Shown here: in pieces, positions 1,298 through 29,285 of the stretch
Layout of the letters: the number at the start of each line of letters is the position of its first letter
How positions within the stretch are numbered: position 1 is the stretch's first letter
Virus record (IMG/VR): IMGVR_UViG_3300027963_000246
Span: 1 to 29,285 of that record
Direction: 5' to 3' (one strand)
Length of the DNA: 29,285 nt
Source: a virus
Program-made: the position numbers and the translations under genes
The notes under the pieces: generated by a model
Database searches by the model: none
Told to the model about the DNA's origin: nothing
Seen by the model: only the letters and a program-made list of their open reading frames with translations

Positions 1298-1307
1298 AGG
1301 ATAGAAG

Positions 1308-4300
1308 ATGGCCTTTCCAGTATCGCCGACGAACGGCCAGACTGCTGTTGTCAACAACATAACATATCAGTTTTCCAACGTCGGTAATACCTGGACACGC
1401 ATACTGTCTACGGCCAACATCATAACTGCCAACACACTGGTATCAAACGGATATGTCAGTGCTGTTGGCAACGTTTCTGGCAACTATATCTTAGGTAACG
1501 GATCGCAATTAACTGGGATCAGTATCAATCCCAGCAACATTGCCAGCGGCACAAGCAATGTCTCAATAGTCAGCGCAGGTGGCAATGCCACAGTCAATAT
1601 TGGTGGCACCGCAAACGTGGCTGTGTTTGCCACAACAGGTGAATACATCACAGGTGTGGTCAGCGCAACTGGAAACGTCACAGGCGGCAATTTATTAACT
1701 GCTGGATCAATTTCGGCCACAGGCACACTCAGTGTAAGTGGTAACACCACAGTGGCCAACGTCAGTGCTGGCAACATTTCAGCAGGCAGTTTAAATACTA
1801 GTGGGTTGATTTCGGCAACAGCCAACGTAACTGGTGGTAATTTGCTTACTCCTGGCGTGGTAAGTGCGGCCGGTAATATTACAGGTGGCAACTTGTCAGG
1901 TACTAACATTGTTGGCACACTGACCACAGCCGCTCAAACCAATATCACAAGTGTTGGCACATTGGGCAGTTTAGCAGTGACAGCCAACGTTACAGGCGGT
2001 AACTTACTAACAGGTGGACTGATCAGTTCAACAGGAACTATCACTGGCTCAAGTCATTTGGGTGCAGTAGTATCTGTAACAGGCAATGTAACAGGTGGCA
2101 ACATCGCCAGCACCGCTGATGTCAGCGCAGGCGGCGTGGTTTCGGCTGTGGGCAACATCACTGGTGGCAACATTAACACAGTAGGTGTTGTATCAGCCAC
2201 AGGTAATGTTAATGCTGGTAATTTATATACTAACGCTTCTGCTACTATAAGAACTTTAAGTGTGATTGGCGGGGTACAGTTTGTAACAACAGGATCTGAG
2301 ATTCTTATTGGTACTGGTCAACTTACTGCTAATAACACTATCGGTGGTCCATCGCAAACTGGTTTTATTCAACTTGGTCGCTCAACTGCCACACAAGGGG
2401 TATACATTGCCAACGGTGCAGTCAGTTCAGGCAATACCAAGACTGTGAGCATTGGTGAAAACGGTGTTGCTAACTCTATTACCAACATCAACATTGGCAC
2501 AGCCACAGGCAATGGTAACGTAACATTCAGCGCCAACACTCTAGTTGCCATTGCCAACACATCAGGCACTGCACTCAGTGTAGCAGGTAACGTCACAGGT
2601 GGCAATTTGTTGACAGGTGGATTGATTAGCGCCACTTCGACTATCACAAGCGCCGCGAATATAACCGGTGGCAATATCTTGACTGCTGGTTTGATCTCAG
2701 CCACTAGCACAATCACCTCAGCGGCTAACATCACAGGTGGTAACTTATTAACTGCTGGTTTGATATCAGCCACAGGCAACATAACCAGTGGTAATATACT
2801 TACCGCTGGCATTATGAGTTCAACTGGTAATGCTATACACGGTAACATCTTAACGGCTGGATTGATATCAGCCACTAGCACAATCACCTCAGCGGCCAAT
2901 ATAACCGGTGGTAACATTCTAACTGGTGGACTAGTATCAGCAACTGCCAACATCACAGGTGGTAACGTATTATCTGGGGCCGTGGTGTCAGCCGTGGCCA
3001 ACATTACTGGTGGCAACATTTTAACCGCCGGACTGGTATCAGCAACCGGCAACGTAATTGGTGGTAATGTATTAACAGGTGGTTTGATATCAGCAACATC
3101 AACAATCACCAGTGCCGCCAACATCACAGGTGGCAATCTGCTTACAGGTGGATTGATATCATCCACAGGCAACATAACTGGTGGCAACATAGTAGGCAGT
3201 ACCCTAAGCGTTACAGGAACCACCACTGGGTCTGGTATTGGATCTGGTGGCCTTACAACAGGTACCGGCACAGCATTGTTAGCGGCCACCGGAAGAAGCA
3301 GTGGTACAACTGGTGCATTGTTGAACCTAACAGGTAACAGTAATCCTTCTGGCTCATCTGGTTACTTGCTGAACGGCCAGCATTCTTTGACTCCACAAGG
3401 TGATTTATCCGCTTGGTATGGCCTGTTATTTTTGCCCACAATACAAACATATTCCGGCAATATTAGTAGTATGTACAATGAGTTCATACGATTGGATAAT
3501 GGAGCAGCCGGCAACGCAAACATCACAAACTGGTATGGATCTTTTGTTTCTACGCCTAGTTTTACAGTGGGCTCAGCACCTGTAATTAACAGTTGGAGCG
3601 GATATACTGTACAAGATCCCAACAATGCAGTGGCCAATGCTACCAGTGCATATGGATTTAGATCTTCTGTTAATCGTGGTACTAATAGATGGGGTGCATA
3701 TTTTTCGGGCACAGCCAACAACTATTTTGCAGGCAACGTTGGCATTGGTGTTATTTCTGCCGGCAACGCATTAGATGTTTCGGGCAGTGTTTATGTAACC
3801 AGTGGTAACGTTTTAACTTCTGGATTGATAAGTGCCACTGGTAATATCACAGGCGGTAATTTGATCACCAGCGGCATTTTAACAGCCACAGGTGGTATTA
3901 TTTCGGTAGCCAACGTTTCGGGCGGCAATATCACCACTGGCGGTGTAGTAACAGCAACGGGCAATGTCACAGGTGGTAATTTAACCACAGCAGGCGTAGT
4001 AACAGCCACAGGCAACATAACTGGTGGCAACATTTTAAATAATGGTTTAATTTCCAGTACTGGTAACAGCACAGCAGCCAACTATTTGACTGGTGGTTTA
4101 GTTTCTGCTACTGGTACTGTAACTGGGTCATCATTCAGTGGTGCCGGCACTGGGTTGACTGGTACTGCTTCATCATTGACTGTGGGCAGTGCTACCACAG
4201 CAGGTACCGCAGGCACAGTAACCACATCGGCTCAGCCAAACATCACAAGTGTTGGTACATTGACTGCACTAACAGTGACTGGCAATACCACTGGTGGCAA

Positions 4301-4667
4301 CATCTTGACTGCTGGACAAATTTCAGCAACCGGCAACATTACAGGTAACTATTTTATTGGAAATGGTGCGTTTTTAACTGGGCTTAACGCAGGGGCCAGT
4401 AACAGTATCAGTAATGGTGCTACCAATATCAGCATACCTGTGTCTTCGGGCAATATTGCTATGAGCGTGGGCGGTGCGTCAAATACCGTGGTTATTAACC
4501 TGGGCAGTTTGACCATGTATGGGTCATTTGCAGGGCCAAAAACGCTGAGTGCTAACGTGACTGTGGCAAATGCAGTTAATGCTTTGTTGCTGGGCCCAGT
4601 TACAATTGCAACTGGATACAACATCACGGTGCCCGATGCTTCAACATTATATGTTTACGCACCATAA
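1308..4667 (+). CDS. Large repeat-rich tail-fibre-like protein, fibre 2
   Basis: This 1119-residue protein is the longest of the three fibres. Its N-terminus (MAFPVSPTNGQTAVV, then ITYQFSN and NTWTRI) resembles the leader of many phage fibre proteins. The shaft contains 20 GGN steps by my count, mostly in units of about 17 residues. One unit, GLISATSTITSAANITGGN, occurs four times exactly. Residues about 640-830 interrupt the repeats with an aromatic segment (WYGLLFLP, NWYGSF, RWGAYFSG, NYFAGNVGIG), which could be a globular receptor-binding or trimerisation insert. Unlike its neighbours it lacks the YADLAE C-terminal domain and ends in a beta-rich tail (TVPDASTLYVYAP). A purine-rich AAGGA precedes the ATG. 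Function is inferred from composition and context. Confidence 0.75.
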   Translation: MAFPVSPTNGQTAVVNNITYQFSNVGNTWTRILSTANIITANTLVSNGYVSAVGNVSGNYILGNGSQLTGISINPSNIASGTSNVSIVSAGGNATVNIGGTANVAVFATTGEYITGVVSATGNVTGGNLLTAGSISATGTLSVSGNTTVANVSAGNISAGSLNTSGLISATANVTGGNLLTPGVVSAAGNITGGNLSGTNIVGTLTTAAQTNITSVGTLGSLAVTANVTGGNLLTGGLISSTGTITGSSHLGAVVSVTGNVTGGNIASTADVSAGGVVSAVGNITGGNINTVGVVSATGNVNAGNLYTNASATIRTLSVIGGVQFVTTGSEILIGTGQLTANNTIGGPSQTGFIQLGRSTATQGVYIANGAVSSGNTKTVSIGENGVANSITNINIGTATGNGNVTFSANTLVAIANTSGTALSVAGNVTGGNLLTGGLISATSTITSAANITGGNILTAGLISATSTITSAANITGGNLLTAGLISATGNITSGNILTAGIMSSTGNAIHGNILTAGLISATSTITSAANITGGNILTGGLVSATANITGGNVLSGAVVSAVANITGGNILTAGLVSATGNVIGGNVLTGGLISATSTITSAANITGGNLLTGGLISSTGNITGGNIVGSTLSVTGTTTGSGIGSGGLTTGTGTALLAATGRSSGTTGALLNLTGNSNPSGSSGYLLNGQHSLTPQGDLSAWYGLLFLPTIQTYSGNISSMYNEFIRLDNGAAGNANITNWYGSFVSTPSFTVGSAPVINSWSGYTVQDPNNAVANATSAYGFRSSVNRGTNRWGAYFSGTANNYFAGNVGIGVISAGNALDVSGSVYVTSGNVLTSGLISATGNITGGNLITSGILTATGGIISVANVSGGNITTGGVVTATGNVTGGNLTTAGVVTATGNITGGNILNNGLISSTGNSTAANYLTGGLVSATGTVTGSSFSGAGTGLTGTASSLTVGSATTAGTAGTVTTSAQPNITSVGTLTALTVTGNTTGGNILTAGQISATGNITGNYFIGNGAFLTGLNAGASNSISNGATNISIPVSSGNIAMSVGGASNTVVINLGSLTMYGSFAGPKTLSANVTVANAVNALLLGPVTIATGYNITVPDASTLYVYAP
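1885..2095 (+). repeat. Fibre block shared with about 5409-5619
   Basis: About 70 codons, beginning GNLSGTNIVGTLTTAAQ and continuing through TSHLGAV-like sequence, occur in both fibre 2 and fibre 3 with few amino-acid changes. The block is longer than one shaft repeat, so it reflects duplication or gene conversion of a specific segment, not chance similarity of low-complexity sequence. Confidence 0.7.
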
Positions 4668-4670
4668 ATA
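4663..4670 (+). promoter_or_regulatory. T4-type late promoter for fibre 3
   Basis: CATAAATA matches the T4 late consensus TATAAATA at seven of eight positions. It overlaps the stop codon of fibre 2 and ends 18 bases before the next ATG, with AAGGA at 4675-4679 in between. Confidence 0.7.
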
Positions 4671-4688
4671 CAGTAAGGATAAATTTAA

Positions 4689-6143
4689 ATGGCATTATCA
4701 CTAGACGGCACAACAGGAATATCGGCAACGGGTAACATCATATCTAGTGGTGGTATTATCTCCGCTACGGGCAACATCTACGGCGGAAACATTATTGGTA
4801 CACTGGTTGTTGCTAGTGCTACATTTTCAGGCAACGTCTCCGGTGGTAACCTGCTCACTGGTGGATTAATAAGTGCTACAAGTACAATCACCAGTGCTGC
4901 CAACATTTCTGGTGGTAATATCTTAACTGGTGGATTAATAAGTGCTACTGGTAACATAACTGCTCCATTTTTTGTTGGCAACGGAGCCGCATTAACTGGA
5001 CTCAGTGCCAGCAAGATCTACAACGGAACTTCAGAAGCTAATATTGGCACAAGTGGTGGTAACGCCAACATCACAGTTGGTGGTACGTCAAACGTGGCTG
5101 TATTTGCTACTACTGGGGCCTACATAACTGGTATAAACAGCGTGAGTGGTAACGTAACTGGTGGTAACTTGTTAACAGGTGGATTAATATCCGCAGCCGC
5201 CAACGTAACTGCTCCGTATTTTATTGGTAACGGCGCGGCCTTAACTGGACTCAGTGCCAGCAAAATATTCAACGGCACAAGTGAAGCCAACATTGGTACT
5301 TCGGGTGGCAATGCTAACATCACAATTGGTGGTACTTCAAATGTGGTTGTCGTAGCCACAACTGGTGTTTTAGTAACTGGTATAGTATCAGCAACTGGTA
5401 ACATTACAGGTGGCAACTTGAGTGGCACCAACATTGTTGGTACATTGACCACAGCCGCTCAAACTAACATTACAAGTGTTGGTACTCTGGGTAGTTTGGT
5501 AGTAACTGCCAACGTTACAGGTGGTAATTTATTAACTGCTGGATTGATATCAGCAGGCGGTACCATAACCGGCACAAGTCATTTGGGTGCTGTAATATCG
5601 GTTACTGGTGCTATCACAGGCGCAGCTATTACAGGTTCAAGTTTAACAGTATCAACCGGCAACATCAGTGGTGGTAATATTGTCAATAACAACGCAAACG
5701 GCGTTGGTAACATTGGTAGCGCAACTGTTTATTTTAACACTGTGTTTGGTAAAGCAACCACAGCACAATACGCTGACTTGGCAGAATTGTATTCAACTGA
5801 CGCTGAATACACACCGGGAACTGTGTTGGTGTTTGGTGGCAACAATGAAGTTACAGTATCAACTGCTGTTGCTGATCCTCGAGTGGCCGGTGTGGTATCT
5901 ACAAATCCTGCTCACTTGATGAATAGTGTGCTTGAAAGCACACACAAGGTAGCAGTGGCCTTGACAGGTCGTGTGCCAACTTCAGTTACGGGCACCATAC
6001 GCAAAGGTGACATGATGGTCACAGCCAGCAACGGTGCCGCACAGGCCAGTGCCACTCCTGCTATGGGCACAGTGATCGGTAAGGCACTAGAAAACTTTAA
6101 CGGTGTATCGGGTATGATCGAGATTGTGGTTGGTAGACTATAA
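4689..6143 (+). CDS. Repeat-rich tail-fibre-like structural protein, fibre 3
   Basis: This 484-residue protein combines SATGNITGGN-type shaft repeats with two copies of a module containing GNGAALTGLSASKI, TSEANIGTSGGNANIT and GGTSNV. Its C-terminal 144 residues (341-484) align without gaps to the end of fibre 1. A block around residues 240-312 nearly duplicates a block in fibre 2. It has its own late promoter and an AAGGA site, so it could be expressed separately from the first two. The stop codon overlaps the convergent Nudix gene by six bases. It is probably a distal fibre subunit or an alternative adhesin. The shared domains suggest recombination among the three genes. Specificity is unknown. 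Confidence 0.78.
   Translation: MALSLDGTTGISATGNIISSGGIISATGNIYGGNIIGTLVVASATFSGNVSGGNLLTGGLISATSTITSAANISGGNILTGGLISATGNITAPFFVGNGAALTGLSASKIYNGTSEANIGTSGGNANITVGGTSNVAVFATTGAYITGINSVSGNVTGGNLLTGGLISAAANVTAPYFIGNGAALTGLSASKIFNGTSEANIGTSGGNANITIGGTSNVVVVATTGVLVTGIVSATGNITGGNLSGTNIVGTLTTAAQTNITSVGTLGSLVVTANVTGGNLLTAGLISAGGTITGTSHLGAVISVTGAITGAAITGSSLTVSTGNISGGNIVNNNANGVGNIGSATVYFNTVFGKATTAQYADLAELYSTDAEYTPGTVLVFGGNNEVTVSTAVADPRVAGVVSTNPAHLMNSVLESTHKVAVALTGRVPTSVTGTIRKGDMMVTASNGAAQASATPAMGTVIGKALENFNGVSGMIEIVVGRL
5409..5619 (+). repeat. Fibre block shared with about 1885-2095
   Basis: This is the second copy of the roughly 70-codon block, here inside fibre 3. Amino-acid differences are conservative (for example SLAVT against SLVVT), while many third codon positions differ. 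The exchange is therefore not very recent, or selection holds the protein sequence. Confidence 0.7.
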
Positions 6144-10534: not shown

Positions 10535-10551
10535 GGGGATGAGATATCCCC
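10535..10551 (+). other. Hairpin containing a start codon
   Basis: GGGGAT (10535-10540) and ATCCCC (10546-10551) form a six-base-pair stem with a five-base loop. The ATG at 10539-10541 lies partly in the stem. With the late promoter ending at 10534, this would be the extreme 5' end of the mRNA. Confidence 0.6.
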
Positions 10552-11495
10552 CGCATTGGCCAGATGACCATCCTGACGATCCAAGAACATACATTCCAAA
10601 CATTGAGTTTTACATAACCAATGTTTGTAACTTGGCCTGTCCTCAATGCAATAGATTTAACGATCACGACTTTGCAGGTTGGCAACGCTGGAGTGATTAC
10701 GAAGAATTATATACCGAATGGTCCAAAAAAGTAAGACTACAGCGAGTAACCATACTAGGTGGTGAACCTCTACTGAATCCGTCTATATGTGATTGGATAA
10801 CAGGATTAAATCGTCTCTGGAACAAACGTGTGAATGTTCTCACCAACGGTACACGACTGAACCAGGTACCTGGATTATATGATGCAATGGCAAGTCATCA
10901 ACCTGTTAAAGATGGAAAAAATTGGATTGGCATCAGTGTACACAATGCTAACGATTTAGATCGTCATTTTGATGAAGTAAAAAAATTCTTACCAGGAAAA
11001 TTAGAATTTTTTGATGGCAAAAAAGATCCAACAAAAACTTGGAACGCAAATTATACATTTGTAGACTCAAATGATATCCGAATAAATCTATATCTTCAAG
11101 ATGACTTTAACCCATCATCGATACAAAAAAATAATCTAAATCAATTCTCTTTACATCAAAGCGATCCAATAGCCGCACACAATATATGTGGATTTGTTCA
11201 ATATCAATGTTATCATTTTATTCGTGCAAAATTATACAAATGTGGTCCCGTGGCACTTTTTCCAGAGTTTGATCAACAACATCATTTGAACATCTCCGAT
11301 GAGGACCGAAAATTACTAAACAGTTACAAACCGTTGACCGTAAATGAGTTTGATCAACGTGGCCAACAATTCATCGATGATATTGATGAGGTGATTCCGC
11401 AATGTAAATTTTGCCCAGACAAAGTAGAAAACAACATCAAGATACACTCGCTAAACAAATCCAAAAATGCAACAAGTTCTTTTAACACTAGGTGA
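10539..11495 (+). CDS. Radical SAM enzyme
   Basis: This 318-residue protein has the CX3CX2C iron-sulfur motif at C30, C34 and C37 and the SAM-binding GGEP at residues 74-77. Such enzymes cleave S-adenosylmethionine to start radical chemistry. C-terminal cysteines (CGFVQYQCYHF, YKCGPVALF, CKFCPD) suggest an auxiliary twitch/SPASM-like cluster, as in peptide- and small-molecule-modifying members. The substrate is unknown. An in-frame TAG at 10533-10535 forces the start at 10539. DNA from about 10900 to 11460 is visibly richer in A and T than its neighbours, suggesting recent acquisition. Its last 29 bases overlap the SGNH-like gene, so the two are probably translated together. Confidence 0.88.
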   Translation: MRYPPHWPDDHPDDPRTYIPNIEFYITNVCNLACPQCNRFNDHDFAGWQRWSDYEELYTEWSKKVRLQRVTILGGEPLLNPSICDWITGLNRLWNKRVNVLTNGTRLNQVPGLYDAMASHQPVKDGKNWIGISVHNANDLDRHFDEVKKFLPGKLEFFDGKKDPTKTWNANYTFVDSNDIRINLYLQDDFNPSSIQKNNLNQFSLHQSDPIAAHNICGFVQYQCYHFIRAKLYKCGPVALFPEFDQQHHLNISDEDRKLLNSYKPLTVNEFDQRGQQFIDDIDEVIPQCKFCPDKVENNIKIHSLNKSKNATSSFNTR

Positions 11496-19798: not shown

Positions 19799-20161
19799 AT
19801 GGCCAGCATTAACTATACCAACTACAACATTGATCAAACTGTGCGAGTGTTTGATGCATTCTATGACTATGATGTGAACATTCCTGTGGGCGACTATGAC
19901 ATAGTCAACAGTTATTTTCGATCAGTAATGACCACAAAGCAAGCCGCAGACAACTTCACTGCCAGCCTATTTCGAGTAGCACAAGACACCAACATACCAC
20001 CATTGACTCTGTTGCAAACATTCCAGGCCAGCGGCGAGCAACTGGATCTCAACATCAACATGGCCTACTATCTCAACAGCATCCGTAGCCGTGCCACACT
20101 GTTGGGTGTGGGCATACCAGTGGCACCAAATTTTTACGCGGCTAGAAACGTCATACAATAA
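19799..20161 (+). CDS. Small unknown virion-associated protein
   Basis: I do not recognise this 120-residue protein. Its N-terminus is rich in Asn, Asp and Tyr (MASINYTNYNIDQTVRVFDA). A central segment (VNSYFRSVMTTKQAADNF) and a C-terminal helix (NINMAYYLNSIRSRATLLG) look folded. There is no signal peptide and no obvious enzyme motif. Its stop codon overlaps the gp4 start as TAATG, so it is translationally coupled to a head-completion gene. It lies between tail-tube and head-completion genes, which suggests a structural or assembly role. No good ribosome-binding site is visible upstream. Confidence 0.7.
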   Translation: MASINYTNYNIDQTVRVFDAFYDYDVNIPVGDYDIVNSYFRSVMTTKQAADNFTASLFRVAQDTNIPPLTLLQTFQASGEQLDLNINMAYYLNSIRSRATLLGVGIPVAPNFYAARNVIQ

Positions 20162-20592
20162 TGGCACACTGGGCACAAGGCACATACACTGTGGTCAACC
20201 GTGCCAAGTACGTGGGCAATGGTGAACCCAGATATCGCAGTGGGTGGGAATTCTCGTTTATGCGATTCCTAGACTCAAATGATCATATTTTACAATGGGC
20301 CAGTGAATCAATTGCTATTCCCTATCGTCATCCACTCACAGGCAAGATGTCACAATACATTCCTGACTTTCTAATAACATATCGCACCAAAAACAATCAA
20401 ATGCGGGCCGAACTGATTGAAATCAAACCCAAAAAGCAAAGCGTGATTGAGTCAAAAATGAGTAGCAAGGATCGTGCCATAGTTGCAATCAATTACTGTA
20501 AGTGGGACGCGGCGACCAAATGGGCCCGACGCAACGGACTCACATTCAGAGTCATAACCGAACAAGATATGTTTCACAACGGTCGAGCGTGA
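20161..20592 (+). CDS. 4: Head completion protein, gp4-like nuclease-fold protein
   Basis: This 143-residue protein follows T4 gp4: a basic YRSGWEFSFMRFLDSN segment, QWASESIAIPYRHPLTGK, then YIPDFLITY and AELIEIKPKKQ. D69, E87 and K89 form the PD-(D/E)XK pattern of a TnsA-like endonuclease fold. In T4, gp4 (also called gp50/gp65) is needed to complete DNA-filled heads so that tails can attach. A DNA-end-processing role is plausible. T4 gp4 is about 150 residues, so this one is full length. Its ATG shares a base with the previous stop codon (TAATG). It precedes the small terminase gene by a short gap holding a late promoter. Confidence 0.85.
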   Translation: MAHWAQGTYTVVNRAKYVGNGEPRYRSGWEFSFMRFLDSNDHILQWASESIAIPYRHPLTGKMSQYIPDFLITYRTKNNQMRAELIEIKPKKQSVIESKMSSKDRAIVAINYCKWDAATKWARRNGLTFRVITEQDMFHNGRA

Positions 20593-20608: not shown

Positions 20609-21115
20609 ATGACACGCAAACTTGAAGACCTTTTTGATCTCCCACCTACCCCAGAAGAAGTAGACATTGCTCTACCCACACTTCCCACCAATCGAGAAAC
20701 ACTACAAGCACTAGATGATGCCATTGACAAAGTTGACAATGCATTGCCTGCTGTGCGTGGACTTGAAGCCACTGACACCGAGATGGACGACCTTGCTGGC
20801 CTGGCAACAGGCAGTTACAAGGATTTAATGGATCTTGGTTTTCAGGTCGACAGTCGATTTGCCAGTGAAATCTTTTCAGTAGCATCAAACATGCTGGGAC
20901 ATGCTATCACAGCCAAGACAGCCAAACTGGACAAAAAACTAAAAATGATAGATCTACAAATGAAGAAAATGCGTCTGGATCAACAGCAACAGGCCCTGGA
21001 TTCCAAAGATCCTGAAGGCATAGCCGCCGCACAGACAGCACACGGCGTGGTTCTAAGCCGCAATGATTTACTGGAACGTATTATTGGCAAAAGCCAAAAC
21101 ACGCAAAAAGAATAA
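20609..21115 (+). CDS. 16: Terminase small subunit, gp16-like
   Basis: This 168-residue protein is about the size of T4 gp16 (164). It has an acidic N-terminus, then a central coiled-coil region from TDTEMDDLAGLATGSYKDL through EIFSVASNMLGHAITAKTAK. A long Lys/Gln-rich helix (KLKMIDLQMKKMRLDQQQQA) follows. This pattern is shared by gp16 proteins of aquatic T4-like phages, which form rings and regulate the packaging motor gp17. In T4, genes 16 and 17 overlap. Here gp17 lies about 6.8 kb away with seven or more genes between them. The late promoter sits five bases before the ATG. Confidence 0.8.
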   Translation: MTRKLEDLFDLPPTPEEVDIALPTLPTNRETLQALDDAIDKVDNALPAVRGLEATDTEMDDLAGLATGSYKDLMDLGFQVDSRFASEIFSVASNMLGHAITAKTAKLDKKLKMIDLQMKKMRLDQQQQALDSKDPEGIAAAQTAHGVVLSRNDLLERIIGKSQNTQKE

Positions 21116-21136: not shown

Positions 21137-21742
21137 ATGAAACCATTTGCAAAATACCTAGCCGAAAGCGAACGTACATACAACTACCGTATCAAAGTAG
21201 TTGGTGATGTACCTGATGGCTTTTTTAAAGAACTTCGAGACAAGTGCGCTCAATTTGACGTTGTCAAAATGTCAGATGCCAAAAGCACACCAGTTCGCAA
21301 AGTGATCCCTGACTTCCCGGCGTTTCCCAATCAGCCAATGAAGATTGTGGATGTGGAATTTAAGTATCCGGCCATTGAGCCACAGATCAAACAACTGGCA
21401 CAGTTGTTGGGACTGGATCCAAATCGCATTGTGATGATGGCCACTCCGTACGAAGAAAGTCTTGACATTGAAAGCGACAAGATTGCGGACGAGAACCAAG
21501 ACCTGTTGAATTCACCTTATCCTGCACCAGATGCAGAACAGCGAGCACTCAAGAAAGACTATGCAACTGGTCCTTACGATCACGAAGTCTTAAAAAATGC
21601 ATACCGCAGTAACTTTACCGTGGCCGGGGGCAAGACTCCTCCTGCCAAAACCACAAATGAATTGCCAATGGGCAACAAGAGCCCCATGACCAATATCAAG
21701 CGTCAACCCCGCCCGGCCACTGGCGCAAACCCAAGAGGATAA
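21137..21742 (+). CDS. Probable capsid-internal or core protein with CTS-like N-terminus
   Basis: The N-terminus of this 201-residue protein, MKPFAKYLAE followed by S, closely resembles the T4 internal-protein capsid-targeting sequence MKTYQEFIAE. That sequence is cut after the Glu by the prohead protease gp21 (consensus L/I-x-E). The rest has a ferredoxin-like alternation (TYNYRIKVVGDVPDGFFKEL, KIVDVEFKYPA) and a disordered Pro- and Asn-rich C-terminus. Proteins like it occur in aquatic T4-like phages, where I know of no firm function. It has its own late promoter and AGGA, and the 939-residue gene starts four bases after its stop. Packaging inside the head is an inference from the N-terminus and location. 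Confidence 0.7.
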   Translation: MKPFAKYLAESERTYNYRIKVVGDVPDGFFKELRDKCAQFDVVKMSDAKSTPVRKVIPDFPAFPNQPMKIVDVEFKYPAIEPQIKQLAQLLGLDPNRIVMMATPYEESLDIESDKIADENQDLLNSPYPAPDAEQRALKKDYATGPYDHEVLKNAYRSNFTVAGGKTPPAKTTNELPMGNKSPMTNIKRQPRPATGANPRG

Positions 21743-21746
21743 TATA

Positions 21747-24566
21747 ATGACATTTTTTTACAATCTCAACGACAAACTAAACGCAATTCGCGAGAAGCCA
21801 GAAACCACGCACAAGCAACTGAACGAGCGTGACATGGGCAAGCACAACAACAAGACCACTGGGTTTGATGCCTTGGCCAAGAAGGCTGGTAAAGAATACG
21901 GTAGCAAGGCTGCCGGTGAGCGTGTGGCAGGTGCTCAGTTTCAGAAGATGAAAAAATCTGGCAAAATAGAAGAAGAAGGCATGAGCCGTGCAGCCAAAGG
22001 CTATGAGAAGTATGGCAAAGCGGGCATGCAGGCCTTGGCCAAAGCCGGACGTGAAGGCAAGGCACTTGATCCAGTTCGCAACAAGTATGACAAGTATGAC
22101 AACAAAGAAGTAGACGAAGGTCTTGGTGATATGGCTCGCAAAGTTGGCAGTGCAGTTAAGAAAGTTGGCGGCGCGGTGTTAAACCGACTGGGTCATGGTA
22201 GCGACAAAGACATGCGTAAAGACTTGCAAAAGAAAATGGGCATGCCACAAACAGGCAAGAAGCCACAAGAACTTGATGAACTAAGTCCAGCAACATTGAC
22301 TAGTTATGCTGGTAAGCGATCAGGACAAGCCAAGTGGGCCGGCGGTGTTGCCAAGCAATTAGCAAGTCGCCCTCCTGAAAGACCATACTATAGAGACTCT
22401 AGTGAAACTGACCCTGAAACTGATTACGGTCCACAAGGCAACAAGTTTGCCAAGTTCAATCAACAGGCCAGGAGCAATATAAAGAAAGCAATCGGCAAAG
22501 GTGCCACTCCTAATACTCAAGATTACGATCAGGCAGCACAAAAAGCACAAGGTGGCTACGGTGATGCAAGTAATCCTGTAACTAGAAAAAAGGGCATGGC
22601 CGAAGAAGGCGGTGCTCCAATGACTGCCAAACAAAAGTCATTTGCTAAACTTGCTCCACCTGCAGACAAAATTACTTTCGCTGACAAGATTGCCGGCGCC
22701 AAGAAAGAAGTTGACGAGATGCTGGGCGATGTGGCTGCTGAAGCCATCAAAGGTGCACTCAGTTCCAAGCAAAAGAAAATTGACATGAACAAGAACGGCA
22801 AACTAGATGCCAACGACTTTGCTATGTTGCGCCGAGGTGGCAACAAGCAAGTGGCCGACGAAGGTGTTGGTCAGTTCTATGTGTATCACAAGACAAAAGG
22901 TGATAGAGCAGGTGGTGCTGATTATGATTTGCTGAAAACATTCCCTGACAAAGACAGTGCCACGTCCTTTGCTCAAAAATACAACAACAAGATATCTGCT
23001 GACAAGAAAAACTTTCACTCGGCTGTGGTTAGAACCAAATCTGTGAAAAAAGACATGGACGAGGGCTGGGACGAAATGGAAAAAGACGTCAAGAGCCGTA
23101 TGGGTGCTCGCCGAGTAGGCGATGTCACACACGGCGACAAGCATGACACTGAAGAGATTCCAGGTGGTCGCAGAGTCACACGCAGAGTTGATCCCAACAC
23201 AGGTTATAGTGTAGGCGCTGACAGTGATGAACCAGCCGCAGGTGAAAAGCGCGGACGTGGTCGTCCAAAGAGTGCAAGTGGCCCACGTCAAGAACGTGTC
23301 ACCGCAAAATCACGCAAGGCTGATCGTACTGCATACAGCAAAAAGAAAACCAACGAAGATGATTTTGACATCACTGATCGCGGTGAGTACGACCAAGAAG
23401 GCGAAATGGCCAAAGACGATATCAAGACTATTGTGCGTCATGCACAGGCCCTGGAAAAGATTCTGGGCGATAACGACAACTTACCAGAATGGGTACAAGC
23501 CAAGTTGGCCAAGATCGAAGGCATGATGACTGCTGTGGACGACTACATGCAGAATCAAGAGGACGATGAAATGGCCATGGGCGAAGAAAAAACTTCCACT
23601 CGTGACAACCGTGCTGAACGTGCAGGCCGCAAGGTGGCCAAGGACATTGAGTATGATGAGAAAAAGAAAGATGGCATTCACGGCAAGAAGCGTGGCAGTG
23701 AAGATGCCCGGGCAGAAAAAGCCGGCAAGAAGGTAGCCAAAGACATTGAGTATGATGAGAAAAAAGACAAACCTAAAAAAGTCAAAGAGGCAGGCGGAAC
23801 TGACACTCCCACAGCATCAAGTGGCTTTGGTTTTGGACAAGGCATTTATGATTCCATGAATCGTGAACTTGAAACCATGATTCGCGAAAGTATGAACGTC
23901 AGCATGAACATGAACACCGACGCCACAGGCGGACCAAGCAAGAGCGTGACTGTTACTGCTACAGATGATGATGCACTCAAACTAGGCGAGTTGTTGAAAA
24001 ACGCCGGCCTAGGCGGACATGATTACCCACACATTGAAGGTGGTGCTGATATGGATCATCCAGGTGCTATCGAAGTAAATGGCACAATGGATGCTGACGG
24101 TGCAGAACAATTGGCTCAACAGATTCGTCAAGCCATGGGAGATCATGATCACGCAGAAGGCGAAGTATGCGATGCATGTGGTCAAGAAGACTGCGGCTGC
24201 GAAACAGTTGACGAAGCCTACGGTGATGATGTTGTGAGTCAAAATGAACCTGACTTTCCAACCAACACCGAAACAGCACAAGACAGTTTTGAATATTCAG
24301 GTGGATTAAATGGTCCTAAATCAACTGGCCAAACAACTATTCCTGTAATTGCAGGACAAGAAGAACGCATGGGTGCAGATGATTTGCATCGCTTGCGTGA
24401 GATGGCCGGCATCAAAGAAGCCGCCAAGCCAGACTTCCCTGACGTTGACAACGACGGCGACAAAAAAGAAACTATCGAAAAAGCAGTTGATGACAAAAAA
24501 GCAGCCGGTGACAAAAAAGTTGCTGAAAGTTTAATGGCTGAACTACAACGTTTTATGAAAGCATAA
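21747..24566 (+). CDS. Large charged modular EF-hand protein, probable core or internal virion protein
   Basis: This 939-residue protein is very rich in Lys, Glu, Asp, Gly and Ala and is probably largely disordered. It contains an EF-hand loop at residues about 345-357 (DMNKNGKLDANDF) and a second at 899-908 (DVDNDGDKKE). A possible metal site has C808, C811, C816 and C818. A duplicated unit (KVAKDIEYDEKK) occurs near residues 630 and 663. Short acidic linkers such as VDEGLGD, ADEGVG and MDEGWDE recur between modules. The charge and length fit a scaffold, DNA-compacting or ejected internal protein, possibly cut by the prohead protease. I do not recognise a named T4 homologue. It lies between the two terminase genes and follows a CTS-bearing gene. 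Confidence 0.75.
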   Translation: MTFFYNLNDKLNAIREKPETTHKQLNERDMGKHNNKTTGFDALAKKAGKEYGSKAAGERVAGAQFQKMKKSGKIEEEGMSRAAKGYEKYGKAGMQALAKAGREGKALDPVRNKYDKYDNKEVDEGLGDMARKVGSAVKKVGGAVLNRLGHGSDKDMRKDLQKKMGMPQTGKKPQELDELSPATLTSYAGKRSGQAKWAGGVAKQLASRPPERPYYRDSSETDPETDYGPQGNKFAKFNQQARSNIKKAIGKGATPNTQDYDQAAQKAQGGYGDASNPVTRKKGMAEEGGAPMTAKQKSFAKLAPPADKITFADKIAGAKKEVDEMLGDVAAEAIKGALSSKQKKIDMNKNGKLDANDFAMLRRGGNKQVADEGVGQFYVYHKTKGDRAGGADYDLLKTFPDKDSATSFAQKYNNKISADKKNFHSAVVRTKSVKKDMDEGWDEMEKDVKSRMGARRVGDVTHGDKHDTEEIPGGRRVTRRVDPNTGYSVGADSDEPAAGEKRGRGRPKSASGPRQERVTAKSRKADRTAYSKKKTNEDDFDITDRGEYDQEGEMAKDDIKTIVRHAQALEKILGDNDNLPEWVQAKLAKIEGMMTAVDDYMQNQEDDEMAMGEEKTSTRDNRAERAGRKVAKDIEYDEKKKDGIHGKKRGSEDARAEKAGKKVAKDIEYDEKKDKPKKVKEAGGTDTPTASSGFGFGQGIYDSMNRELETMIRESMNVSMNMNTDATGGPSKSVTVTATDDDALKLGELLKNAGLGGHDYPHIEGGADMDHPGAIEVNGTMDADGAEQLAQQIRQAMGDHDHAEGEVCDACGQEDCGCETVDEAYGDDVVSQNEPDFPTNTETAQDSFEYSGGLNGPKSTGQTTIPVIAGQEERMGADDLHRLREMAGIKEAAKPDFPDVDNDGDKKETIEKAVDDKKAAGDKKVAESLMAELQRFMKA
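23608..23768 (+). repeat. Two-copy internal repeat in the EF-hand protein
   Basis: Two units encoding (R/K)AG(R/K)KVAKDIEYDEKK lie at about 23608-23667 and 23706-23765 with nearly identical DNA. They are separated by a short Lys/Gly-rich spacer. This is a tandem duplication that could expand or contract. Confidence 0.75.
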
Positions 24567-24567
24567 T

Positions 24568-24738
24568 ATGAGCACACAACCTTTTACCACAGCATTGACA
24601 ACACCCCCTGTTATCAACCCACACAGTCCAGCCACTGGCGGTTACAAACAACAACCGGTATACATTCCGGGTGTGTTGGATCAATCACGCAACTTGTTTC
24701 AACCAGTTGTGAGTGAACCACCCAAGGACTCGAAATAA
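24568..24738 (+). CDS. Small Pro/Gln-rich unknown protein
   Basis: A 56-residue frame starts with MSTQPFTTALTTPPVINPHS and ends VSEPPKDSK. It begins two bases after the stop of the 939-residue gene, and its own stop shares a base with the next start (TAATG). That dense packing is the main evidence it is real. It is Pro-, Thr- and Gln-rich, with a YIPGVLDQSRNLF segment and no membrane helix. It could be a linker-like virion peptide. No function is recognisable. Confidence 0.65.
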   Translation: MSTQPFTTALTTPPVINPHSPATGGYKQQPVYIPGVLDQSRNLFQPVVSEPPKDSK

Positions 24739-25064
24739 TGGCTGCCGTTCAAGTTGTTAATACTGGATCAAACGTTCTTTGGACCACTGACAAGGTGGAA
24801 ATTGCCACAACTCTTGCCACAGTGAATTTTCAAGTTATCCAAACACAGACACAATACATACAGGCCAATGGTGTTCCTGTAAACACTAGTATGCCAACTG
24901 GCAACCTGTACGCAAATTCTGTTGTGGTTCCGGGAAATACTGTACAACAATACTATGTTGGCGCAGGTAATTATCTGAGCATCACTGGTACTGTGTTTAG
25001 TGCCACAGCAATAGGTACTGCCACATCAGCACAGTCTGGCGTGTACGGCTCAACCTCGAGCTAA
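24738..25064 (+). CDS. Small beta-rich unknown protein, possible virion component
   Basis: This 108-residue protein is rich in Thr, Val, Asn and Gln with almost no charge (TGNLYANSVVVPGNTVQQYY, AGNYLSITGTVFSAT). That composition suggests a beta-structured capsid decoration or fibre-like protein. Its style resembles the fibre proteins at the start of the window, but there are no long repeats. It overlaps the preceding small gene by one base and is followed by a GTG-started gene after two bases. I do not recognise a family. It is probably expressed from the late promoter before 21137 along with its neighbours. Confidence 0.65.
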   Translation: MAAVQVVNTGSNVLWTTDKVEIATTLATVNFQVIQTQTQYIQANGVPVNTSMPTGNLYANSVVVPGNTVQQYYVGAGNYLSITGTVFSATAIGTATSAQSGVYGSTSS

Positions 25065-25066
25065 CG

Positions 25067-25447
25067 GTGCGAGCACACGAGTTTTTAACTGAAGATCCTG
25101 TGGTCCATACTGGAGTTAAACCTCACAAGGATCACGAAGCAGTAATGCCATCGGCTCATAGATTGGCCGGCACTAGTGATAGAACTTATACGTTAAATCG
25201 TATAATGCAAATAGTTGCGGCAGCAGATGGAAAAACCATGCCTGACGTTCCTGAAGAAAGTTGGGCTGGAAGAAATAATACAGCACATCCTTACACCAAA
25301 GTAGAAAGCGACATGCTCAAACATGCTTATAAAGCATATGGGGCAGAGTGGGACGACATACTTCATCCCAACAGCAAAGAAAAAAGTCTAGAACCAGACG
25401 ATACACACAAAATCAGTCCTATAATTGGTCACAAAGGTTTCAAATGA
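25067..25447 (+). CDS. Unknown protein with capsid-targeting-like N-terminus (A)
   Basis: This 126-residue protein starts at GTG (25067), just after the preceding stop. The N-terminus MRAHEFLTE matches the style of T4 capsid-targeting sequences, with L-x-E as a potential gp21 cleavage site. The body contains HRLAGTSDRTYTLNRIMQIV and a later EWDDILHP region. It is small, soluble and lacks recognisable catalytic motifs. A stop-start overlap (ATGA) links it to a second protein with almost the same N-terminus. I infer an internal head protein that may be injected with the DNA. The function after delivery is unknown. Confidence 0.65.
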   Translation: MRAHEFLTEDPVVHTGVKPHKDHEAVMPSAHRLAGTSDRTYTLNRIMQIVAAADGKTMPDVPEESWAGRNNTAHPYTKVESDMLKHAYKAYGAEWDDILHPNSKEKSLEPDDTHKISPIIGHKGFK

Positions 25448-25824
25448 GAGCCCGAGAATTTATCACTGAACAAGCAACTTTGCCGCCAGAGCAAGCAGAT
25501 CCCATGAACCATGTGTTTGTGTTGCCCGGTGTACCATCTAGTGATCCGTACAAAATATATCGCTTGGGTGTGGCCATGGCCCGAGCCCGTAGCGATGCCG
25601 GCACTAACGATCCCATACCTAACATGCCTGAGTGGTCAGCACAAGCCGCATTTGGCGAAGACGCTGTGGTTGCTGGATTCAATGCTTCAGTTGAACCAAT
25701 TATTGATCAGGCACTAAAAATGTCCGGGTTGTCCGCTGAAAAAATACAAATCAGTACCCCAAACAGTTTAGAACCGGCCTTGGTAAACACACAAAGCATA
25801 GTCAAGCCGTTCAAGGGTTACTAA
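25444..25824 (+). CDS. Unknown protein with capsid-targeting-like N-terminus (B)
   Basis: This 126-residue protein starts at ATG 25444, which overlaps the preceding stop as ATGA. A longer frame from 25348 would run through the coding region of its neighbour and lose the shared motif. MRAREFITE nearly repeats the start of the previous protein (MRAHEFLTE) and the T4 CTS (ends EFIAE). The bodies are not obviously alike. A segment VFVLPGVPSSDPYKIYRLGVA and a C-terminal ALKMSGLSAEKIQIS suggest a small folded domain. Together with its neighbour it looks like a pair of packaged cargo proteins. This is inference, and the family is not recognised. Confidence 0.65.
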   Translation: MRAREFITEQATLPPEQADPMNHVFVLPGVPSSDPYKIYRLGVAMARARSDAGTNDPIPNMPEWSAQAAFGEDAVVAGFNASVEPIIDQALKMSGLSAEKIQISTPNSLEPALVNTQSIVKPFKGY

Positions 25825-25856: not shown

Positions 25857-26675
25857 ATGAAAAAAATATTAACCGTAGTCTTGCTGGTCACAGCAGGACT
25901 GGCACACGCCTGGGATCAACGTGCTCCTAATCCTGTTCAGGCATGTCAAGTACACTCACCTTATGGGTTTGCCATAGTCAAGCGTCCAGTACAAGCAATT
26001 TGCCGTGAAGCATATCTAGTGGCATATGATGCTCCTGTAAAGATTCCTGCTTACGTAGCCTACACATTACTTCCACAAAACGCACTAGGATGCTTTCCAC
26101 GTACCAATGCGTTTGTTGCTGACCAATCATTAGGCGGCACAGGTGCCCGTCCAGATGACTATGCTGGCACAGGCTACGACAAAGGTCATGCCGCTCCCGA
26201 TGGTGACTTGTCATGGTCAGCACAAGTAGAATATGAATCATTCTTAATGACCAATATGTATCCACAACACGGCAGTTTGAATCGTGGTATTTGGAAACTG
26301 TTGGAAACAAGTGTGCGTGGTTGGGCAGTACAACTCAATCAACCCTACACAATCTATGTGGGTGCGTTCTACGGTGCCGGTGATGAGTCAATTGGCAACG
26401 GCGTCGTTGTGCCACACGGCTTTTACAAAATTGTAATCAACAACCAAACCAAACAGATTGCTGGTTGGGCATTCCCACATACCAAACCCTATGTTAATTT
26501 AGGCAATGACTTGACCAAGTTCCGACTGCCAGTTAGCCAAATTGAAATCACAGCCGGTGTTAAATTTGCTTACCCAGCAGGTGCTCGAGAACTACAACCA
26601 GGACAAGAATGGCCAGTGGATTTTGGTGCACTCACAAATGCCAAACGTGCCCGGTGTGGTCGAAATGCAGAATAA
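25857..26675 (+). CDS. Secreted DNA/RNA non-specific endonuclease (NUC1/EndoG family)
   Basis: This 272-residue protein begins with a typical Sec signal peptide (MKKILTVVLLVTAGLAHA, probable cut after residue 18). It has the DRGH-type active site as D108-K-G-H111 and the metal-binding N142 in LNRGIWKLLE, with TNMYPQ between. Family members such as Serratia nuclease and NucA degrade DNA and RNA using a His base and one Mg or Mn ion. The late promoter and export signal suggest a periplasmic or extracellular role near lysis. Several cysteines in the mature part could form disulfides, as expected for an exported protein. This is not a core T4 gene, and transfer from a bacterium is likely. Confidence 0.88.
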   Translation: MKKILTVVLLVTAGLAHAWDQRAPNPVQACQVHSPYGFAIVKRPVQAICREAYLVAYDAPVKIPAYVAYTLLPQNALGCFPRTNAFVADQSLGGTGARPDDYAGTGYDKGHAAPDGDLSWSAQVEYESFLMTNMYPQHGSLNRGIWKLLETSVRGWAVQLNQPYTIYVGAFYGAGDESIGNGVVVPHGFYKIVINNQTKQIAGWAFPHTKPYVNLGNDLTKFRLPVSQIEITAGVKFAYPAGARELQPGQEWPVDFGALTNAKRARCGRNAE

Positions 26676-26777: not shown

Positions 26778-27908
26778 ATGAGCAATTTTTACTGTGCGGC
26801 ACCCTGGCGTGGCTTGCATATCAATCCCCAAGGCAATGTCAAAACATGTTGTGCTGGCAACCCCAACATGCTGGGCAATCTCAACACAAATACTATAGAT
26901 GAGATATTAAACACTGACGCCATGCGAGAGATACGTAAGAGCCTAGCACAAGGTCAAGCACATGAGTATTGTAGTAATTGCGTACAATCAGAAAGATTTG
27001 GTGCAGATTCAGAACGTACTTGGCACAACAACGTCAACCCCGATTTTGATTATGCCACAGCCGGTGATCGCTATCACTATCCTGTGATTTTTGATGTACG
27101 TTGGAACACAACTTGTAATTTGAGTTGTAATTATTGTGGACCTGCGTGTTCCAGCAAGTGGGCCAGCATCAAAAGCGTGCCATTTCGATCTGGTACAAGA
27201 CCCTACTATCAACAGGTGTGTGACTTCCTGGACCAGCATCGTGAACACATACACGAAGTGGCCATGGTAGGCGGCGAACCTTTGTTATTGCCCGAGAATG
27301 AACGTTTGTTAGAAGTTATCCCTGAGTCTGCTATTGTGACCTTGATCACAAACATGAATGTGGATTTAGAAAAGAACCGGATATTCCAAAAACTTGCGCA
27401 ACGTCGTAACGTGGGCTGGAGTATGAGTTTTGATAATACTGGTGATAGATTAGAATATGTGCGCCATGGTGCCAGTTGGCAGTTGTTACAACACAATCTA
27501 CAAACAGTTAAATATCTCATGCGCGACAACGGACATTGGGGAGGCATACACGCAGTGTATAACATTTATAGTGCTACACATCTTTGTGAATTTAGGCAGT
27601 TTGCTCAAGATACTGGTACCACAGTACTATGGCAAAACTTGTTTCAGCCTGACTATCTTGATCCATTCTTGCATGGTCTCAAAGTGGCCGGATTGGCCAG
27701 TGAAGAAATTCTTCGTTTTTATGCTATGGGTATCGCTACTGATGTTGAACGTCAATTCTTTGACCAAGCATTGGAAAAATATAAACAAACAAAAGATAAT
27801 CCTGTGATACAACAAAAGTTTCATAAACACATTCAAGACAACGAAACGGTATTTCATCCAGACAAAGCAGGTGAGTTTGCACGCCTGTGGCCGGAGTTGA
27901 TCATATGA
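26778..27908 (+). CDS. Twitch-type radical SAM enzyme
   Basis: This 376-residue protein has a cysteine-rich N-terminal part (C6, C24-C25, C65, C68) that looks like a SPASM/twitch auxiliary-cluster domain (APWRGLHINPQGNVKTCC). The radical SAM core follows, with CX3CX2C at C113, C117 and C120 and GGEP at 165-168. In most SPASM enzymes the auxiliary domain follows the core, so this order is reversed. Relatives occur in aquatic phages with unknown substrates. Peptide, protein or nucleotide modification are all possible. The late promoter lies four bases upstream, and the stop codon overlaps the gp17 start as ATGA. The enzyme is therefore likely co-expressed with the packaging motor. Confidence 0.88.
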   Translation: MSNFYCAAPWRGLHINPQGNVKTCCAGNPNMLGNLNTNTIDEILNTDAMREIRKSLAQGQAHEYCSNCVQSERFGADSERTWHNNVNPDFDYATAGDRYHYPVIFDVRWNTTCNLSCNYCGPACSSKWASIKSVPFRSGTRPYYQQVCDFLDQHREHIHEVAMVGGEPLLLPENERLLEVIPESAIVTLITNMNVDLEKNRIFQKLAQRRNVGWSMSFDNTGDRLEYVRHGASWQLLQHNLQTVKYLMRDNGHWGGIHAVYNIYSATHLCEFRQFAQDTGTTVLWQNLFQPDYLDPFLHGLKVAGLASEEILRFYAMGIATDVERQFFDQALEKYKQTKDNPVIQQKFHKHIQDNETVFHPDKAGEFARLWPELII

Positions 27909-29285
27909 TAGGCGCAAAAAATACCTTAGACACAGTGTTGGTCAAAGCACCACACCGCAAAGAAACATTTACCGAATCGGAACTTGAGGACTTTGCCCGG
28001 TGCGCTGATCCTGTAACCGGCGCCATGTACTTCATGGACAACTTCTTTCATATTCAACATCCTGTTCGGGGCAAGATGTTGTATCATCCTTTTGAATATC
28101 AAAAACGCCTGATCAACAATTATCATACCAATCGTTTTTCAATCTCACTAATGCCGCGACAAACCGGCAAGTCAACTTCGGCAGCCGGGTACTTGTTGTG
28201 GTATGCTATGTTTGTTCCTGACGCAACTATTCTTATTGCCGCACACAAATACCTGGGCGCACAAGAGATCATGCAACGTATTCGCTATGCTTATGAACTA
28301 TGTCCCAATCACATACGTGCAGGCGCCACAAGTTACAACAAAGGTAGTTTAGAATTTGACAACGGTTCGCGTATTGTAAGTCAAACCACAACTGAAAATA
28401 CCGGTCGTGGTATGAGTATTACCTTGCTGTATCTAGACGAGTTTGCCTTTGTGAGACCCACAATTGCCAAAGAGTTTTGGACTAGTATTACACCTACACT
28501 ATCAACTGGTGGTAAAGCAATTATCACAAGCACACCAAACTCAGACGAAGATCAGTTTGCCTATATCTGGAAGGGTGCTAACAAGATTGAAGATGAGTTT
28601 GGTAATCCACGTCCAGATGGCTTGGGCATCAACGGCTTCAAAGCATTTAGAGCATTCTGGCGCGAACATCCAGACCGTGATGATGCATGGGCCGCAGAAC
28701 AGCGCAGCCAATTAGGAGACGAACGTTTCCGTCGAGAGATGGACTGTGACTTTGTTATCAATGACGAAACATTGATCTCGCCTATTAAACTGCTGGAACT
28801 AGAAGGCCAAGAGCCTACCCACAAAACGGGACAGGTGCGTTGGTACAAGCCTGTTGATCGAGACAAAATGTATATTGTGGCCCTTGACCCAAGCCTAGGC
28901 ACGGGTGGTGATCCTTCAGCCATACAAGTATTTGAAGCAGAAACTACAGAGCAAGTGGCCGAGTGGCGCCACAACAAAACTGATGTGCCCACACAGATCA
29001 AAATCCTAGCAGACGTGATCAAAGAAATACACTCAGTGGTCCGGGACGAAAAGAAGATATACTACTCAGTGGAAAACAATACCCTAGGCGAAGCCGCACT
29101 GATCTCTATTGCAGAATATGGCGAAGAAAATATTCCAGGTTATTTCCTCAGCGACAACTCAGTACAAAGTTCAAACGGACGCAGAATCCGCAAGGGATTT
29201 ACCACAACCAACAAGAGCAAGATTGTGGCCTGCAACAAGTTCAAAGTGCTGGTTGAATCTGGACGTATGAAATTGTACTCAAAGC
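27905..29285 (+). CDS. 17: Terminase large subunit, gp17-like (3' end beyond window)
   Basis: The first 460 codons of the packaging motor are present. The ATPase has a Walker A of the T4 gp17 type (MPRQTGKST at residues 83-91, K89) and a Walker B with catalytic glutamate (LLYLDEFAF, D178 and E179). An upstream YHPFEYQKRLI adenine-binding Q motif precedes it. The RNase-H-like nuclease domain begins with ALDPSLGTGGDPSA (D328). T4 gp17 has 610 residues, so roughly the last quarter lies outside the window. It pumps DNA into the prohead and cuts the concatemer. The ATGA overlap with the radical SAM gene indicates coupled translation. Confidence 0.95.
   Translation, partial: MIGAKNTLDTVLVKAPHRKETFTESELEDFARCADPVTGAMYFMDNFFHIQHPVRGKMLYHPFEYQKRLINNYHTNRFSISLMPRQTGKSTSAAGYLLWYAMFVPDATILIAAHKYLGAQEIMQRIRYAYELCPNHIRAGATSYNKGSLEFDNGSRIVSQTTTENTGRGMSITLLYLDEFAFVRPTIAKEFWTSITPTLSTGGKAIITSTPNSDEDQFAYIWKGANKIEDEFGNPRPDGLGINGFKAFRAFWREHPDRDDAWAAEQRSQLGDERFRREMDCDFVINDETLISPIKLLELEGQEPTHKTGQVRWYKPVDRDKMYIVALDPSLGTGGDPSAIQVFEAETTEQVAEWRHNKTDVPTQIKILADVIKEIHSVVRDEKKIYYSVENNTLGEAALISIAEYGEENIPGYFLSDNSVQSSNGRRIRKGFTTTNKSKIVACNKFKVLVESGRMKLYSK

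Follow-up and report, generated by a model that had tools for sequence, protein, structure and literature searches.

The bodies of proteins that a phage injects with its DNA change quickly in evolution, which makes such proteins difficult to identify from sequence, and the question raised by this locus is whether a short N-terminal leader can mark them. The window analysed here is an entire IMG/VR record (29,285 bases, probably a fragment), in which three leader ORFs between the tail sheath gene and the large terminase gene begin MKPFAKYLAE, MRAHEFLTE and MRAREFITE (Table 1). An earlier note on this DNA likened these starts to the capsid-targeting leader of T4 internal proteins, with L/I-x-E closing each. 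All three N-termini are present in the sequence as described, L/I-x-E is read directly at the end of each, and the likeness to T4 holds, as ipII and ipIII of that phage (AF158101) both start MKTYQEFIAE, the same leader on different bodies. We propose, from the sequence comparisons set out below, that the shared N-termini are most probably T4-type capsid-targeting propeptides, a tag that the lineage has used over and over on different cargo.

Table 1. Genes and leaders around the three leader ORFs of the window
Feature	Position	Strand	Remarks
168-aa protein	20609..21115	+	Small-terminase position; PHROG 16202, function unknown; gp16 identity putative
Leader MKPFAKYLAE of 201-aa protein	21137..21166	+	ATG start; predicted cut after E10
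201-aa protein	21137..21742	+	Leader, compact beta-alpha domain (residues ~14-105) and poorly predicted tail
939-aa low-complexity multi-domain protein	21747..24566	+	Without a leader of these types
56-aa ORF, conserved	24568..24738	+	
108-aa ORF, conserved	24738..25064	+	
Leader MRAHEFLTE	25067..25093	+	GTG start
126-aa protein A, leader and body	25067..25447	+	Paralog of protein B
Leader MRAREFITE	25444..25470	+	ATG overlaps preceding stop
126-aa protein B, leader and body	25444..25824	+	Paralog of protein A
Terminase large subunit	27887..29285	+	Runs off contig; 54% identity to PA5oct large terminase

Results

Gene context

The leader genes had been placed between the terminase genes, which holds on the side of the large subunit, by comparison with the Pseudomonas jumbo phage PA5oct; on the other, the product of 20609-21115, a putative small subunit by position, matches only a PHROG of unknown function. 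Head genes are absent from the window fragment. The stop of the protein A gene and the start of the protein B gene share bases; the protein B frame opens earlier in the ORF list (GTG, 25348), and relatives favour the start at 25444. For the three leader proteins, a Pfam search found no domain and a PHROG search no significant match (one insignificant, E 0.029), and tblastn of protein B against 50,697 phage records gave no match at E 0.1.

Several neighbours are recorded here in their own right. Two radical SAM proteins (26778-27908 and 10539-11495), one with a SPASM domain and one adjoining the large terminase gene, are encoded within the structural gene region. Directly 3' of the small leader pair is a DNA/RNA non-specific endonuclease (25857-26675; PF01223, E 5e-37) with an apparent signal peptide, and a TnsA-like endonuclease domain (20161-20592; PF08722, E 2e-19) is encoded two genes ahead of the 201-aa protein. 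Three long ORFs with TGNITGGNLLTAGLISATG-type repeats (38-6143) look tail-fibre-like by eye. Marine and cyanophage matches, together with the view taken in the earlier note, suggest that the lineage is aquatic.

Conservation of the leaders

Among 767 called genes in the whole contigs of three relatives, 16 fitted the pattern M[KR]x2-5[FYL][ILV]xE, two of them doubtfully, as did 2 of 3663 internal ATGs. The DNA pattern for MR[A/S]xEF was present in 47/48 relatives' contigs and its mirror control in 0/48; the 48 had been fetched for encoding one of the leader proteins. In 257 Gb of bacterial genomes the ATGAGR form of the pattern turned up in 107 stretches. Of the 80 stretches examined, 20 had the appearance of gene starts, compared with 110 of 122 in the viral loci.

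Conservation was followed in relatives fetched by their bodies, drawn from the best 80 of 203 and the best 80 of 198 matches and from their contigs. R2, A3, E5, F6 and E9 are kept in all 46 distinct relatives of protein A and in all 54 of protein B, while positions 4, 8 and 10-12 vary and the codons differ synonymously. A joint alignment of 55 small-family sequences has six invariant leader columns and none between E9 and Y36, a count biased by the many rows that came from leader-pattern scans, so that the body-fetched counts are fairer. The leader of the 201-aa protein is nearly as constant among 82 body-fetched relatives (K2 in 80, F4 in 73, Y7 in 77, L8 in 76 and E10 in 77), and the five that differ at position 10 can be explained by the insertion of one residue (MKKPFARYLAE). 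The processing residues, an aliphatic P3 and E at P1, are present in the leaders, with exceptions in distant relatives of the 201-aa protein in which E is replaced by D or A (L440, L357, L427). In MRAQEFIAE variants, QEFIAE is identical to the core of the T4 leader.

One explanation for such a conserved start is that it acts in the DNA, as a translation or promoter element. A T4-like late motif does lie within 25 nt upstream of 21/95 leader genes outside the small family and of 66/595 other genes (p = 0.004), but within 60 nt there is no difference (24/95 against 133/595), and we set aside a link to late promoters as weak and confined to 25 nt. With the synonymous codon variation inside the leader also against it, we give a DNA-level element almost no weight.

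The small pair and the same leader on other bodies

The bodies of the two small proteins had been described as unrelated in appearance. This does not stand: with the leaders removed they align at an hhalign probability of 98.1% (E 9e-14; profiles of 57 and 65 sequences), and on this comparison proteins A and B are diverged tandem paralogs, whose bodies have fallen to 22-26% identity with the leader retained. The shared N-terminus of this pair alone thus does not prove a portable tag. The model of the 126-aa protein is poor (pTM 0.38), and the families have the C-terminal end SP[VI]xxFKGY.

A search of relatives for the same leader had been suggested in the earlier note. Two scans of viral contigs for leader DNA, which constitute a sample, returned at least 214 matches in at least 151 loci; with three ORFs of under 30 aa removed and identical proteins merged, at least 204 distinct MR[A/S]xEF leader proteins were left, at least 109 from the small family and at least 95 from outside it. 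The latter form at least 39 single-linkage clusters, one of which contains, among the matches listed, 40 proteins linked by shared modules. The start is uncertain in 8 of the 95, as 40 or more open codons lie upstream, and the match at L286 is probably due to chance. When 20 leader proteins were compared with Pfam, seven matched at E <= 0.01 and three passed the curated cut-off, for DUF6267, DUF6321 and Acetyltransf_1 (by 0.1 bit), with ART-PolyVal, ParB_N, DUF6886 and most GNAT matches falling below it; of five further proteins one (L435) passes, for GH19. Some other readings were rejected. An MtlR match on L257 was judged spurious, and a kinase-like reading of the same protein by eye had only an implausible Pfam match below cut-off. 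A metallopeptidase reading by eye (HExxH; L250, L263, L265, L268, L269) found no Pfam match for L250 and L268 and only an implausible one below cut-off for L269.

The paralogy of A and B would fit an account in which the N-terminus was merely inherited by gene duplication and has no targeting role. This account fits poorly with the occurrence of the same leader on at least 39 other clusters, some with recognisable unrelated domains, and with its retention after the duplication while the bodies diverged, and we judge it highly improbable. The idea of a portable address tag put forward in the earlier note is therefore upheld by these other clusters in the lineage and not by the pair of small proteins on which it had been based.

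Head machinery and the capsid cleavage site

An S77 prohead protease is encoded in 10/30 relatives' contigs, many of which are fragments, and in 5/35 leader-scan contigs; one of the 35, that of L427, has only a small-family leader, and without it the count is 4/34 contigs with other leader proteins, or 4/6 of those over 100 kb. The gene order in three whole contigs is portal, gp67-like, gp68-like, protease, scaffold and capsid protein, where all names except that of the protease were assigned by eye, by position and by comparison with the PA5oct annotation. In all three genomes read the capsid protein carries KYLKE^NA[ST]AG (NTRKYLKE^NASAG or NATAG), ^ marking a predicted cut, and T4 gp23 has FGSFLTE^AEIGG at the equivalent position. 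We take the KYLKE^N position to be that at which the T4 capsid protein is cut. The same junction reappears in a leader protein: a 66-aa protein of a 346,856-base relative (G008:62030-62230) starts MRAQEFIKE^NASVGATSSGSVATV, in which NASVGATSSGSVATV copies the predicted cleavage junction of the capsid protein, and L433 holds a near copy of this protein. In the same relative, a region well removed from the terminase genes (G008:55308-66122) groups three leader proteins with long proteins of several domains and an ORF that looks Dps-like by eye.

The 201-aa protein and PA5oct

None of the tests run joined the 201-aa protein to proteins A and B, and it is treated here as a probable family apart. 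Its AlphaFold model (mean pLDDT 72.8) has a helix at residues 4-9 and a domain from residue 15, and the fold matches ribosomal S6, ACT and a tRNA-synthetase domain (best Z 7.7). We rejected a functional reading from these matches (Foldseek/VIA), which are to common beta-alpha folds only. The family also has a conserved TTN[DE]LPxGxKSP tail at the C-terminus, within the poorly predicted part.

Among homologs of the 201-aa protein from cultured phages, the closest is the distant EST35_0202 of PA5oct (32.5% over residues 1-79 with E 6e-3, encoded in the same neighbourhood), which is annotated 'structural protein, ESI-MS/MS', that is, as detected in virions. The next gene, EST35_0203, in a position equivalent to that of the 939-aa protein of the window, is also annotated ESI-MS/MS; the 939-aa protein itself has 18 phi-x-E sites against 10.9 expected by shuffling (p 0.0125), an excess that is weak alone. 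EST35_0202 starts MKSFRDYYDAS, with the cut site absent, and this together with the D and A variants of distant relatives means that processing may not be general. Across PA5oct the strict T4 pattern shows no enrichment among MS-detected proteins (2/93 against 2/392 others). The pattern M[KR]hx[DE]h is found in 7/93 against 3/392 (p = 6e-4), having been chosen post hoc from the MS-detected N-termini, with the 392 others taken from our own ORF caller.

Another possibility is that the leader is an uncleaved motif that binds the tail, the portal or another part of the virion, as might be expected from an E10 that is not universal among distant 201-aa members and from a PA5oct homolog annotated in virions without the E site. 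Set against this are the presence of E9 in every body-fetched member of both small families and the use of the same phi-x-E to close the predicted capsid propeptide and to mark the internal module junctions described below, and we consider an uncleaved motif very unlikely.

Module junctions inside longer proteins

The first 70 residues after the leader of the 95 other proteins were compared with other ORFs of the fetched DNA, and copies located at least 45 residues into these were retained. This gave 95 distinct junctions, belonging to 21 module groups. An E stands no more than six positions from the boundary in 84 of them, and 73 show phi-x-E, which occurs at 13.5% of random places in the same proteins and in 483/4213 (11.5%) of a non-leader ORF control; junctions of one group are related, the loci were chosen for leaders, and the E may belong to the module. 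Since the ORF control held spurious ORFs, the test was redone on called genes only, on both sides, and phi-x-E was found at 71/92 junctions against 593/4218 (14.1%) for non-leader genes. It is in the majority in 15 of the 21 groups and, counted per query on called genes, in 15/20 against 60/372 controls. These figures replace a first, cruder count (92/114 against 19% random), which still held leader frames. For example, a module occurs as a single protein in MRAEEFITE^DLRKWF and as LEE^DLRKWF inside longer proteins, and MRAHEFVSEAKKDACY is paired with KTFSDFIEEKDACY inside a protein of Synechococcus phage S-B68 annotated 'structural protein'.

With homologous genes counted separately, MRAxEF opens 28 of the 76 called junction genes, a T4-like leader 6 and M[KR]hx[DE]h 11, which leaves 31 without any of the three. 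The third type is present in 63/3791 background genes, and its excess among junction genes is only partly independent, as the pattern was picked from PA5oct; it gives a hint from sequence that M[KR]hx[DE]h may be a second leader type. Among long junction proteins that lack MRAxEF (such as L266, L329, L283, L418 and L420), a start of the form M[KR]hx[DE]h is frequent (MRLDEI, MKIREV, MRFSEI).

We tentatively suggest, as a possibility that falls somewhat short of probable, that splitting injectable polyproteins is a general task of the prohead protease, with effector modules occurring singly or strung together, each just after phi-x-E. A module made as a single protein would consist of leader, phi-x-E and module. 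In a polyprotein a single leader at the N-terminus (MRAxEF, or M[KR]hx[DE]h as in MRLDEI) would suffice to target all the modules, so that only the processing residues would be needed further in; cuts at phi-x-E would then free each module within the head, and all would be injected together.

Discussion

The leaders and their conservation, the portability of the tag, the protease gene and the matching capsid site can all be read from the sequence, and the mechanism they suggest is that of T4. The leader would bind the prohead core and thereby bring the protein into the head as it forms, the S77 prohead protease of the lineage would cut after phi-x-E, and the mature body would stay with the DNA and probably be injected, from which an effect on the host may be expected. 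On this mechanism A and B would be tandem duplicate cargo and the 201-aa protein a separate cargo family. The analogy of IPI and IPIII in T4 makes an anti-defence function of the bodies plausible (available part of PMC9391042).

The available part of PMC9026906 assigns targeting by the T4 leader to its residues 4 and 7 and processing to residues 8 and 10, where Asp at 10 blocks processing and leaves targeting unaffected, gives a leader length of 10-19 residues, and states that capsid targeting sequences may let T4-like phages take up various proteins. By this account MKPFAKYLAE agrees with T4 at all four positions (F4, Y7, L8, E10) and MRAxEF at three of four, F6 corresponding to T4 position 7 and A3 standing where T4 has Y4; the leaders of the lineage, at 9-10 residues, are at or below the lower end of the T4 range. 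T4 IPI, IPII and IPIII share with the proteins described here a short basic N-terminal leader on unrelated bodies and an S77 protease in the phage. The leader of IPII and IPIII ends in [FY][IL]xE, and the core xEF[IL]xE is common to the lineage leaders. In contrast to T4, the commonest tag of the lineage, MRAxEF, is without the aromatic residue at position 4, and the cargo families are far more numerous and some are enzyme-like, packaging being inferred here from sequence.

Two other systems invite comparison, each through the available part of one paper. Iyer et al. (2017, PMC5512222) predict packaging and injection for the domains of polyvalent proteins, and some leader proteins weakly match ART-PolyVal, ParB and GNAT among them. 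Unlike polyvalent proteins, many units of the lineage stand alone as one protein with a leader to itself, and the three window proteins are without any such domain in Pfam; in the available main text of PMC5512222 the term 'N-terminal motif' is absent and no leader was found described. The ejection proteins of SPN3US and phiKZ (PMC5694885, available part) are likewise head proteins whose propeptides are removed by the prohead protease, and two of them, gp53 and gp54, are diverged proteins with identical N-termini. Most propeptides of the ejection proteins exceed 100 residues (one has 20), against 9-10 in the lineage. Capsid targeting sequences are thus known already, and what appears new against the open-access literature searched is the leader in its MRAxEF form, the breadth of its use and the rule for junctions. 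In that search no listed title, opening of an abstract or passage of text described an MRAxEF leader in such phages.

A leader that is readable in DNA and common to dozens of families would turn ORFs of no known function into a testable list of head cargo, some of it possibly active against host defences. Should cutting extend to the internal junctions, effectors would be released from polyproteins by the prohead protease, a function for it that the literature searched did not describe, and tag and sites together would form a readable inventory of the injected arsenal of a phage. The leader may allow the proteins that these phages deliver into their bacterial hosts to be listed from DNA sequence only.
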